Positions 37,105-39,907 of a DNA stretch of 64,000 nt are shown here, piece after piece (the stretch's first letter is position 1; the number at the start of each line of letters is the position of its first letter). A model generated the notes under the pieces. It was not told the DNA's origin. It worked only from the letters and a program-made list of their open reading frames with translations, and searched no databases. The position numbers and the translations under genes were made by a program. The stretch is from Synechococcus sp. BSA11S (GTDB lineage Bacteria; Cyanobacteriota; Cyanobacteriia; PCC-6307; Cyanobiaceae): positions 1-64,000 of the forward strand of contig NZ_VNWP01000002.1 of NCBI RefSeq assembly GCF_014224355.1. The letters are read 5' to 3'.

Positions 37105-37341
37105 TCAGAGTTTGGCCAGGTTGATGCCCAGTTCGCGGGCGTAGGCGCCAAGGCCTTTTTTCTGGATGGTGCGCAGGGTGCGGGTGGCGACCCGCAGCTT
37201 CACCCAACGGTTGCCTTCAGCCCACCAGAGACGGCGTTCCTGCAGGTTGACCTGTTGAAGTTTCTTGGTGCGCACGTGGGAATGGCTGACAGCCATGCCG
37301 TTGTTGGCGCGCTTGCCGGTGAGCTGACAAACCCGGGACAT
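37105..37341 (-). CDS. rpmB: 50S ribosomal protein L28
   Basis: 78 residues from ATG 37341. It has the family pattern [34 protein letters not shown], then [29 protein letters not shown]. Bacterial L28 has 60-80 residues. The peroxiredoxin gene follows at 23 bases, and htpG lies downstream in the other order (its end is at 37441). Confidence 0.95.
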
Positions 37342-37440
37342 GAATCCAGCCGATACGCAGGGAACAGGCAACCACCAGAAATCCGGGATGTTGCCAAGAA
37401 ATCATCTTAACAAAGGGGGCGTGGCCCCCATCCAGCGCAT

Positions 37441-39336
37441 TCAGCCGAGGCCCTTCTCCATCAGCCGGCCCATCAGGTCGGCGCTGCGCTGCTGGAAACC
37501 GGCCAGTTGGTTCGGCTCCAGGCCCCCCACCGCCAGGCGGGCCAGTTCATAGATGTGGCAGCTGATCTCCTCGGCCAGTTGCTGGCTGGGGGAGCTTGTG
37601 CCCACACCCGTGAGCACGGCGCCACTGGAGAGTTTCTGCAGGCCAGCCACCAGGGGGTGACGGCGGTTGACCACCAGCACATGGTGGTCAGGCAGTCCGG
37701 GCAGGCGCTGCTCCATCAGGGCGCCGATGTCGTTGAGGCGGCGCATCTGCTCCGGCAGCAGGATCAGGGCCGCCGGCGTGTTCTCCCCCTTGAGCGCCTG
37801 GACCTGGATGGTCACCTTCTCGTTGGCCAGGGCACCCCTGAACAGCTCCCGTAACTTCTCGGAGCTGTCGGTGCCGTCAGCATCACTCAAGCTGCTGTCC
37901 TGCTCCTGGATGCTGGCATCGAGTTCCGCGTCCACCCGCTGGAATTTCAGCTCCCCGTGGCGGTCCTCCAGCCAGGGGATGAACTGGGCATCGATCAGGG
38001 TGTCGGCCAGAAGCACCTCGGCCCCCTGCCCCTGCCAGAGGGCCAGCGGCCCGGCCTGGGCGGCTTCATCGGTGCAGTAGAGGATGCGCTGCTCCTCCGC
38101 GCTGCTCAGGCGGCTGCGGTAGCCGGAGAGGGTGGTGTAGGCCTTCTCGCCGACCGCGATCGGGTCGGGTTCCGCTGCGGCCGCGGTGGTGCCGAACAGG
38201 ATCAGCTCGGCCACCTGATCGGCGAACTTCTCATCCTCCATGGCGCCGATCTTGATGAAGGGAGCGATCCCTTCCCAGATCTCGGCATAACGGGCTGGCT
38301 CATCGCGGTGCAGTTCCTTGAGCCGGTCGCCCACTTTCTTGGCAACGAAGCCACCGATCGAGCGCACCCTGCGGTCCGTCTGCAGGGCACTGCGGCTCAC
38401 GTTCAGGGGGATGTCGGGGGAATCGATCACGCCGCGCAGTGGCAGCAGGTAGCGGGGCACCACCTCCTTGATCGAGTCGCTCACGAAGACCTGATTGCAG
38501 TAGAGGCGGATCTCGCCTTTCTCCCAGTCGGCCCGGCCGGTGATCTTCGGGAAGTAGAGGATGCCCTGCAGGGTGTAGGGGTAGTCGGTGTTGAGGTGCA
38601 CCCAGAGCAGGGGGTCACCCTGGAAGGGGTAGAAGTAGCGATAGAGCTGGATGTAGTCGTCGTCGCTGAGGTCGCGGGCACTCTTGCGCCAGGGCGCCTC
38701 CCGTTTGTTCACGGTTTCGCCCTCCAGCTGCACCTCCACGGGCATGAAGTCGCAGTAGGTGGTGATCAAGGTGCGTAGGCGGGCGGGCTCGATGTACTCG
38801 AGCTCCTCCTCCATCAGGTGCAGGATCACGTCGGTGCCGGGTTCGCTGCGCTCGGCGGCCTCGAGGCTGAAGTTGGGGGAGCCGTCGCAGCTCCAGCGCA
38901 CGGCCTCGGACCCTTCGCGGGCACTGAGGGTCACCAGTTCCACCTGGCTCGCCACCATGAAGCTGGAGTAGAACCCAAGGCCGAAATGGCCGATGATCGC
39001 CTCCTCTTCGCGCTTGTACTTCTCGAGAAAGTCTTCGGCGCTGGAGAAAGCCACCTGGTTGATGTAGCGCTTCACCTCCTCGGCGCTCATGCCGATGCCG
39101 TTGTCGGAAATGGTGAGGGTCTTGGCCTCGCGGTCGATGCGGATCTGGATCCTGCCCTCGTCGCCCTCGCTGCAGTCGCCGGCCATGGCGGCCATGCGGC
39201 GCTTGCTGATGGCATCCACCCCGTTGCTCACCAGTTCCCGCAGGAACACCTCATGACCGCTGTAGACGGCTTTCTTGATGATCGGGAAAATGTTTTCGGT
39301 ATGGATCTGGATCTGGCCCTGTTCGGCTTGAAGCAC
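37441..39336 (-). CDS. htpG: Molecular chaperone HtpG (Hsp90)
   Basis: 631 residues from a GTG at 39336; the frame opens to ATG 39456, but the first 40 codons lack homology-like sequence. The N-terminal ATPase domain has IQIHTENIFPIIKKAVYSGHEVFLRELVSNGVDA, DNGIGM and GHFGLGFYSSFMV. The middle domain and the C-terminal dimerisation domain follow. Folds and protects proteins under heat and oxidative stress. Start uncertain. It lies just downstream of the LexA-controlled small gene, so read-through could put htpG partly under SOS control. Confidence 0.93.
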   Translation of the reverse strand: MLQAEQGQIQIHTENIFPIIKKAVYSGHEVFLRELVSNGVDAISKRRMAAMAGDCSEGDEGRIQIRIDREAKTLTISDNGIGMSAEEVKRYINQVAFSSAEDFLEKYKREEEAIIGHFGLGFYSSFMVASQVELVTLSAREGSEAVRWSCDGSPNFSLEAAERSEPGTDVILHLMEEELEYIEPARLRTLITTYCDFMPVEVQLEGETVNKREAPWRKSARDLSDDDYIQLYRYFYPFQGDPLLWVHLNTDYPYTLQGILYFPKITGRADWEKGEIRLYCNQVFVSDSIKEVVPRYLLPLRGVIDSPDIPLNVSRSALQTDRRVRSIGGFVAKKVGDRLKELHRDEPARYAEIWEGIAPFIKIGAMEDEKFADQVAELILFGTTAAAAEPDPIAVGEKAYTTLSGYRSRLSSAEEQRILYCTDEAAQAGPLALWQGQGAEVLLADTLIDAQFIPWLEDRHGELKFQRVDAELDASIQEQDSSLSDADGTDSSEKLRELFRGALANEKVTIQVQALKGENTPAALILLPEQMRRLNDIGALMEQRLPGLPDHHVLVVNRRHPLVAGLQKLSSGAVLTGVGTSSPSQQLAEEISCHIYELARLAVGGLEPNQLAGFQQRSADLMGRLMEKGLG

Positions 39337-39424
39337 AGTCCCACTGGCAACGTCGTGCCGTTCAGGATCGATCCCGGCAGGGGGTCCCGCCAAGGGGGCG
39401 CCATGGGCAGGAAACCGTCCCCCA

Positions 39425-39613
39425 CTAGGGCAGGAGGCCCCCGGCGAACAGCTCACCCTGGATCAGCCTCTCCCAGGGGGGCGGCTGCACGGCGGCTTTG
39501 GTGACCCGGGTGGTGTGGCGGCGTGGGTTGGGTCTGCGCGGCGGCGTCTCGCTGAGCCAGGGCTCATCCGCAGCGCGAAAGACGGCATAGGGGGAAGCGA
39601 CGGTCAAGGGCAC
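39425..39613 (-). CDS. Possible SOS-regulated small protein
   Basis: 62 residues from a GTG at 39613 (a TTG at 39622 would add three). Pro/Arg-rich and soluble, ending in WERLIQGELFAGGLLP. No family is recognised, and the length is near the limit for a real gene. Support comes from position: directly upstream is a good promoter with a LexA-type operator across its -10 (see 39622-39659). With transcription starting around 39624, the mRNA leader would be about 10 bases. htpG begins about 90 bases downstream. Possibly a cell-division or repair inhibitor, which is speculation. Confidence 0.45.
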   Translation of the reverse strand: MPLTVASPYAVFRAADEPWLSETPPRRPNPRRHTTRVTKAAVQPPPWERLIQGELFAGGLLP

Positions 39614-39621
39614 CTGTGGCA

Positions 39622-39635
39622 AGTACAGGTGTACT
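39622..39635 (-). promoter_or_regulatory. LexA (SOS) box
   Basis: AGTACACCTGTACT is an exact match to the cyanobacterial LexA consensus RGTAC-N3-DGTWCB, and is a 5-base inverted repeat (AGTAC/GTACT) around ACCT. It overlaps the -10 element of the promoter at 39631-39659, as expected for a repressor site. Confidence 0.65.
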
Positions 39636-39659
39636 AGCTCGGTCCGGGTTCGCTGTCAA
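39631..39659 (-). promoter_or_regulatory. Sigma-70-type promoter overlapping the LexA box
   Basis: On the minus strand, -35 TTGACA (39659-39654, perfect consensus), a spacer of 17 bases, and -10 TAGTAC (39636-39631). It drives the small gene at 39613 and perhaps htpG. The upstream 39660-39907 stretch has no gene that I can support. Confidence 0.6.
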
Positions 39660-39907
39660 CGTCGGTCTGGTCGCTGGTCGCCGTGTGTCAGGGCGATGGT
39701 GCCGGGGGGACGGCTGAACCAGTTTCTTTCTCGCTGTGGGGGATTCCCGGCTCAGAGCCTGCTCAGAACTTGCCCAGTTCACGGCGCAGCCTCAAGGTCC
39801 CCCGGCTGCCGTTGCCCCTGGGGGTCTGAGCCGGGCAGCCTGCCTGGGCCGGGGCGAGGCCTGAAGCAGCCAGTCCAGGCCATCGGAACAGTTTCGCCGG
39901 CTGAAAC

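Follow-up and report, generated by a model that had tools for sequence, protein, structure and literature searches.

Does the short open frame between a LexA-type promoter and htpG in Synechococcus sp. BSA11S encode a protein, and if so, what would such a protein do? The window, that is, the whole stretch of 64,000 nucleotides analyzed here, carries this locus on its minus strand (Table 1). The promoter described in the initial annotation, TTGACA and TAGTAC with a 17-base spacer, was seen again in the window sequence, and the match to the cyanobacterial LexA consensus that overlaps the −10 element was also found again and holds on both strands. The description of the promoter as strong is unsupported, because the −10 element agrees with TATAAT at only three of six positions and a sigma-70 scan lists no promoter in 39200–39800.

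In 100 shuffles of the window, the LexA consensus gave 0.09 matches on average, and no shuffle had two. The broad consensus is uninformative genome-wide, because its reversed control outnumbers the real matches (54 versus 16). The core TAGTACNNNNGTAC occurs at three sites in the genome versus two for the reversed control; its weight therefore lies in the neighboring genes and not in the count. The three sites stand before recA (L272), before a presumably dprA-like gene (L281), and before the microprotein frame, both of the former genes being identified by eye from sequence. A LexA core box is also located immediately before the start of the dprA-like gene in 8/9 genomes of the same genus (L281/L036, G000:C1:310859-310872; L279, L285, L286, L288, and L290–L292). 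LexA is encoded once in the genome (one PF01726 match) and keeps the Ala–Gly bond, Ser, and Lys of cleavable LexA (VAAGGL, GDSM, and TLKH, by eye). These are named as the LexA cleavage residues in the available part of PMC2921402, which gives the LexA box as TAGTACA-N2-TGTACTA. The data support a LexA-type operator on the microprotein promoter, from which we infer LexA binding and induction by DNA damage.

Table 1. Features of the microprotein locus and their positions in the window
Feature	Position	Strand	Basis or remark
−35 element TTGACA	39654..39659	-	window sequence
−10 element TAGTAC, inside LexA box	39631..39636	-	3/6 matches to TATAAT
LexA box AGTACACCTGTACT (as on minus strand), near-perfect palindrome, 14 bases	39622..39635	.	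consensus match and upstream palindromes of relatives
Shine-Dalgarno-like AGGTG before TTG 39607	39611..39615	-	by eye
Microprotein gene, 60 aa from TTG, stop TAG 39427-39425	39425..39607	-	open frame and relatives
N-terminal box SPYAVFRA	39572..39595	-	alignments of relatives
C-terminal QGELF, predicted sliding-clamp-binding motif	39446..39460	-	alignments, DnaE likeness, PMC3919608 (part of text)
htpG, next gene downstream, 88-base gap	37441..39336	-	likely start GTG 39336, by eye from relatives

The 62-residue frame previously read from GTG 39613 is open as described, but the N-termini of its relatives favor a shorter, 60-residue protein. Translation probably starts at TTG 39607 rather than at GTG 39613, because the relatives begin with M-x-V-x-S-P-Y-A or similar and AGGTG precedes this codon; a further TTG at 39622 would give 65 residues. 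The sequence is rich in Pro and Arg and is not hydrophobic by eye. Structure prediction from a 28-row alignment gave neither helix nor strand (mean pLDDT 65 and pTM 0.20). The variable middle of the protein is thus predicted to be unstructured, and the protein as a whole is probably disordered.

The claim that the frame is of unknown family held in every library searched. Pfam gave no significant match, with single weak matches at E 0.037 and 0.094; no profile of NCBIfam matched the family significantly; none of PHROGs did so for five relatives, the window protein not being among them (best E 0.064); PADLOC gave no significant match; and no relative was found in the PDB. An Rfam miRNA match (E 0.046), sub-threshold and far below the gathering score, was taken as chance. 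In this sense, the family is new to the profile libraries searched (Pfam, NCBIfam, PHROGs, and PADLOC). Phage records held no relative by DNA, nor by the protein of one relative. Viral contigs gave no match to the combined DNA pattern described below, and a profile scan of viral contigs matched seven stretches, none of which was confirmed. The gene is not mentioned in the available parts of PMC2518516, PMC3898218, PMC5101192, and PMC9426592, and the accessible parts of the open-licence literature yielded no small clamp-binding protein of cyanobacteria linked to SOS or LexA. The gene may appear in the supplementary gene tables of PMC3091678.

The members of the family share an N-terminal SPYAxF(R/K)A box (N-box) and a C-terminal Q-x-x-L-F motif or a close variant. 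Ser5, Pro6, Tyr7, Ala8, and Phe10 of the N-box are invariant, Ala12 is kept at 90% or more in both alignments, and Trp17 is conserved in alignment A4. A search of 99 genomes, including its own, with the window protein gave five matches at E <0.01 besides the window; L002, L003, L004, and L006 are members, and L005 is not. The weaker matches L012 and L019 are also members. The other loci fetched in this first search (e.g., in G089, E 0.016, from other families) lack the N-box.

A strict DNA pattern of the N-box was found in 178 of 400 sampled genomes of the cyanobacterial family, which we take to be Cyanobiaceae, and its reversed pattern in five. A combined pattern of LexA core and N-box matched at least 120 stretches of named genome contigs. 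The 80 titles among the matches listed are mostly Prochlorococcus, and also include Synechococcus, Vulcanococcus, Cyanobium, and other cyanobacterial metagenome-assembled genomes (MAGs). A Pelagibacteraceae MAG among the titles carries a Prochlorococcus-like member; the match in a Bacteroidetes MAG is not a microprotein gene. Within the marine genus of G253, a profile built from 32 members detected the gene in 29/34 genomes, including 18 of the 19 near-complete ones. Of 291 genomes sampled across the class, 32 were positive, all within the family of the window and corresponding to 32/36 family genomes by row order; with at most 20 candidates scored per genome, no match at E 0.001 was obtained outside the cyanobacterial family.

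The own genus is less uniform. A confirmed N-box gene is present in three of nine genomes (G000, G001, and G002), and G004–G008 gave no clear match. In G003, the copy is interrupted: ~1.7 kb separates the LexA promoter and the N-box start from the remainder of the frame. Apart from this copy, stops or random substitutions, which would have spoken against the gene, were not seen in the relatives. The gene is dispensable, because six of the nine genomes are without a confirmed member and five of these six have LexA. The interruption in G003 (L237 and L284; G003:C9, about 37265-39141) holds a long open frame of 465 codons. G001 and G002 have two copies of the N-box gene each, and L235, L236, L239, and L240 of the same genus are N-box genes with LexA promoters that are without the C-terminal motif.

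The operator upstream of relatives was analyzed on 70 loci found by the N-box alone, to avoid selecting for the tested feature; 30 were delivered by the N-box scan, and 40 were picked from the printed list for diversity. After duplicates by the first 30 bases and loci too near an end were removed, 63 loci were scored. All 63 have a GTAC-N4-GTAC palindrome with at least seven of eight matches within 92 bases upstream, whereas none of the 63 control windows reaches seven and 16 reach six. Among the profile loci, 37 of 38 reach seven and the remaining one six, versus 0/38 in the controls. In 46 of the 63 N-box loci, TTGACN precedes the TA of the best box by 17 or 18 bases. In 16, the best box begins three bases behind TTGACN and a second, weaker box follows (by eye); one locus has no TTGACN. 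The corresponding numbers of the profile set are nine, 26, and three.

The presence of a LexA box predicts induction imperfectly: mitomycin C induced 15/27 and 10/46 of the genes previously predicted to have one in two marine Synechococcus, according to the part of PMC3744912 available. The same source lists a conserved hypothetical gene, sync1474/SYNW1405, as highly induced by mitomycin C together with recA, lexA, and umuC in these two strains, and it is a candidate relative of the microprotein gene from the literature search alone. In Prochlorococcus PCC9511, lexA expression is nearly equal with and without UV (PMC2921402, part of text).

The frame itself carries the mark of selection. Among 61 distinct, equally long sequences, which we take to be of the high-light Prochlorococcus type, the in-frame pN/pS is 0.37, versus 1.1 and 0.73 in the other two frames, both of which carry stops in 61/61 sequences. 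It falls to 0.20 over the first 15 codons and to 0.15 over the last 10. For two sets with QLAFA-type tails (12 and 37 sequences), the in-frame values are 0.63 and 0.51; the first 15 codons have lower values of 0.27 and 0.31, whereas the last 10 reach 0.84 and 0.60. In many QLAFA-type sequences (low-light-type Prochlorococcus and lineages with a DUF1651 overlap), a second frame overlaps the C-terminal end and also constrains it. Within the motifs, the codons for Ser, Pro, Tyr, Ala, Gly, and Leu vary at their third positions. These comparisons indicate that the frame is under purifying selection, which is strongest at the two ends in high-light-type Prochlorococcus. Conservation at the amino acid level, selection, and linkage to the LexA box together argue that the small frame is a real, unannotated protein gene. 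The same three observations refute a chance open frame behind a LexA site, a reading to which we give practically no credence, even with many short frames being open by chance in the GC-rich DNA of the window.

Two kinds of frame overlap the gene in other lineages. In a motif scan of 199 distinct frames, the window included, 14 are overlapped by a DUF1651 (PF07864) frame, 43 by a small Cys-rich frame, and 142 by neither. DUF1651 overlaps the microprotein gene in several lineages but is read in another frame and is another protein; Pfam confirmed the assignment for the two overlapping frames tested (E 8e-22 and 2e-27). At the window locus, the scan showed no overlap of this kind. DUF1651-like overlaps are present at L012, L019, L044, L045, L057, L063, L089, L143, L232, L305, L307–L309, and L313, and these frames would share a LexA-controlled transcript with the microprotein gene. 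In marine strains, DUF1651 genes are phage-responsive, according to the available part of PMC5490813. When read in the other frame, IQGDLF becomes DSGRPF, and VQLAFA becomes RSACVC. By eye, the other frame of L222 and L077 resembles a DUF1651 gene decayed by stops, and the Cys frame of L110 has a stop; the microprotein frame is intact in all three. In several lineages, the gene thus shares its DNA with a DUF1651 or Cys-rich gene read in another frame, which it sometimes outlives. We infer that the DUF1651 overlap is ancestral.

The small Cys-rich family, with the pattern EEWxYLD...CxTCxxF...C...LLTC...GEHLTxRC, occurs at L273 and L296 (same genus), at L079, L046, and other Prochlorococcus loci, and at L037 in the own genome. 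It has no significant match in Pfam or NCBIfam, and a LexA core box lies in front of it in G001 and G004. A two-gene module with the Cys-rich partner is unsupported, the Cys-rich gene being present in 31/32 genomes with more than one match in 22.

As previously described, htpG lies just behind the frame on the same strand. Among the loci fetched, the microprotein gene directly precedes htpG at five distinct places, all with freshwater-type members: the window, L002 (=L145), L116, L201, and L202. There, it lies 130–189 bases ahead of the conserved ENIFPIIKK motif of htpG; the distance is ~1 kb at L113. At the other loci read, its neighbors differ. Readthrough into htpG is possible in the window because no terminator-like site was found between the two genes. 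The suggested SOS effect on htpG is weakly supported: it is possible in the window, but the link is local to some lineages and is not a family trait. At the five places, a block conserved by eye, GGACGGTT...CCCAT...CCCCTTGGCG (39360-39425 in the window), precedes htpG and may serve as a promoter or operator of its own.

The C-terminus keeps QG(D/E)LF, or QL(A/V)F in Prochlorococcus. Motifs were counted in 69 distinct complete proteins from the 70 N-box loci, one being truncated. Sixty-three carry the motif (36 QxxLF and 27 QL[AVS]F), versus a mean of 0.7 and a maximum of seven in 500 shuffles. Of the remaining six, that of L202 has QLELW, three have QDDHF or QDNHF, and two have none. Among the 43 proteins whose genes showed no DUF1651 or Cys overlap, 40 have the motif, and 182 of the 199 distinct frames over all loci (box matching at least six of eight) have one of the listed forms. 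The N-box is kept and the clamp-type motif is absent in G001, G002, L204, and L205. In many members, further residues follow the QG[DEN]LF motif.

This tail resembles that of the replicase. DnaE contains SGQGNLF in six of seven genomes and SGQGNLL in one, and the L071 member carries exactly QGNLF. The QGNLF of the DnaE of the window genome aligns to GQLDLF and GQFDLF of the Pol III alpha chains 5fku and 7pu7, which we take to be those of Escherichia coli and Mycobacterium tuberculosis; the motif is absent at the aligned position in two solved Thermus-type chains (2hpi and 3e0d). A second QxxLF-like string, QMVLF, is present in 7/7 DnaE sequences, and QGNLF was chosen as the clamp site by its position. 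The clamp consensus is given as QL[S/D]LF, with positions 1, 4, and 5 mattering most and with Q and LF conserved in DnaE1, in the available part of PMC3919608. Because DnaE has QGNLF and the published consensus conserves Q and LF, the Synechococcus-type tail is, by sequence likeness, of the same kind as the clamp tail of the replicase. As in the clamp-binding class, the Q-x-x-L-F-type motif lies in a region predicted to be unstructured; the QL[AV]F form of Prochlorococcus agrees in part and is a weaker match to the clamp consensus. The clamp motifs of UmuC (L314–L320) vary: QKLLF in L319, QLHLL in L317, none obvious in L314, and LQxHLL-like strings in others.

Here, we propose a function for the microprotein based on these features. 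The earlier suggestion of an inhibitor or a repair accessory takes concrete shape in the C-terminal motif of clamp-binding type. LexA would repress a gene whose product is small and probably disordered. A variable linker rich in Pro, Arg, and Lys joins the two conserved linear motifs of this product, the SPYAxF(R/K)Ax(D/E)-W box at the N-terminus and the QxxLF clamp-type motif at the C-terminus. Upon DNA damage, RecA-stimulated cleavage of LexA would free the promoter, and the microprotein would accumulate. It may then fill the hydrophobic cleft of DnaN that is otherwise held by QGNLF of Pol III alpha, and this occupation of the clamp would slow or free the replicase at damaged forks. The microprotein would perhaps also bring a partner bound to the N-box to the clamp at the same time. 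Several observations speak against this proposal: the limited induction of predicted LexA-box genes, the nearly UV-independent lexA expression of PCC9511, the weaker match of QL[AV]F, the second frames that constrain some C-termini, the six own-genus genomes with no confirmed member, the N-box genes without the clamp-type motif, the further QMVLF string in DnaE, and the two Thermus-type chains in which the motif is absent. On balance, we lean slightly toward this LexA-repressed, clamp-binding competitor of Pol III.

The arrangement of one conserved motif at each end of a variable linker would also suit a translesion or repair adapter that binds the clamp to bring an N-box partner, such as UmuC or a nuclease, and does not block Pol III. 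In most of the seven UmuC proteins, the clamp motif is LQxHLL-like or not clear, so that an adapter could conceivably assist them. However, the N-box has no known partner, and QKLLF in L319 and QLHLL in L317 imply that UmuC need not depend on one; in addition, competition with Pol III is hard to avoid because the motif resembles that of DnaE. We regard such an adapter as unlikely, although worth keeping in mind. The Q motif may instead not be a clamp motif at all, and the protein, still under LexA control, may inhibit or tag another target, as a protease adapter or a modulator of RecA/LexA or cell division. SOS regulons often include small inhibitors, and the QLAFA and QLVFG ends could be C-terminal recognition tags, but the likeness of QG[DEN]LF to the DnaE clamp motif, the residues that follow it in many members, and the QLELW of one member speak against this reading, which we judge quite improbable.

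A leader or upstream frame that regulates translation of a downstream or overlapping gene (DUF1651, Cys-rich, or htpG) would account for the overlaps and for the position before htpG at five places. Most of the 199 frames, however, have neither overlap, both ends are conserved at the amino acid level, and the frame stays open where the overlapping one has stops (L222, L077, and L110). We consider a leader function very improbable.

The proposed competitor can be compared with known systems. The type I SOS toxins TisB and DinQ are short hydrophobic membrane peptides; the microprotein is Pro/Arg-rich and not hydrophobic, and no helix of four or more residues is predicted. In eukaryotes, p21 is small and damage-induced. 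p21 and p15PAF are PCNA ligands, and p21 peptides occupy the shared site (PMC9690074, part of text). They differ in using a PIP box and PCNA instead of a QxxLF-type motif and DnaN; the comparison is an analogy, and no homology is claimed. SocB of Caulobacter crescentus (type VI SocAB) binds the shared cleft of the clamp via a clamp motif and blocks replication elongation, and DNA damage is said to raise its level, in the available parts of PMC5812544 and PMC9690074. SocB provides a precedent for halting replication via the clamp, but, likened here by description only, it is kept low by ClpXP and the adapter SocA, whereas the microprotein gene has a LexA operator. ImuB of the ImuA–ImuB–DnaE2 mutasome, a damage-tolerance protein under LexA control, needs its clamp motif to function (PMC10421592, part of text); unlike the microprotein of ~60 residues with no predicted fold, it is a catalytically inactive Y-family polymerase.

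UV delays the S phase of Prochlorococcus PCC9511; in the available part of PMC2921402, a checkpoint or fork stalling is discussed, and the cause is left unsettled. The conserved microprotein, with its LexA operator and DnaE-like clamp motif, makes a direct, testable candidate for this delay. One may go further and regard the microprotein as a bacterial counterpart of p21 that, through a clamp motif of the replicase's type, displaces Pol III, holds replication after damage, and contributes to the delay, its clamp motif having arisen in an ancestor by overprinting of a DUF1651 gene (DSGRPF giving IQGDLF in the other frame); we consider this possible but doubtful. Because one frame of an overlapping pair can outlive the other, the birth of a linear motif by overprinting is open to study in this family. 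In many picocyanobacteria, that is, Prochlorococcus, Synechococcus, and their kin, the microprotein may pause or re-route replication after DNA damage. On the p21-like reading, a LexA-controlled microprotein of this kind would act widely among the most numerous photosynthetic cells of the oceans.
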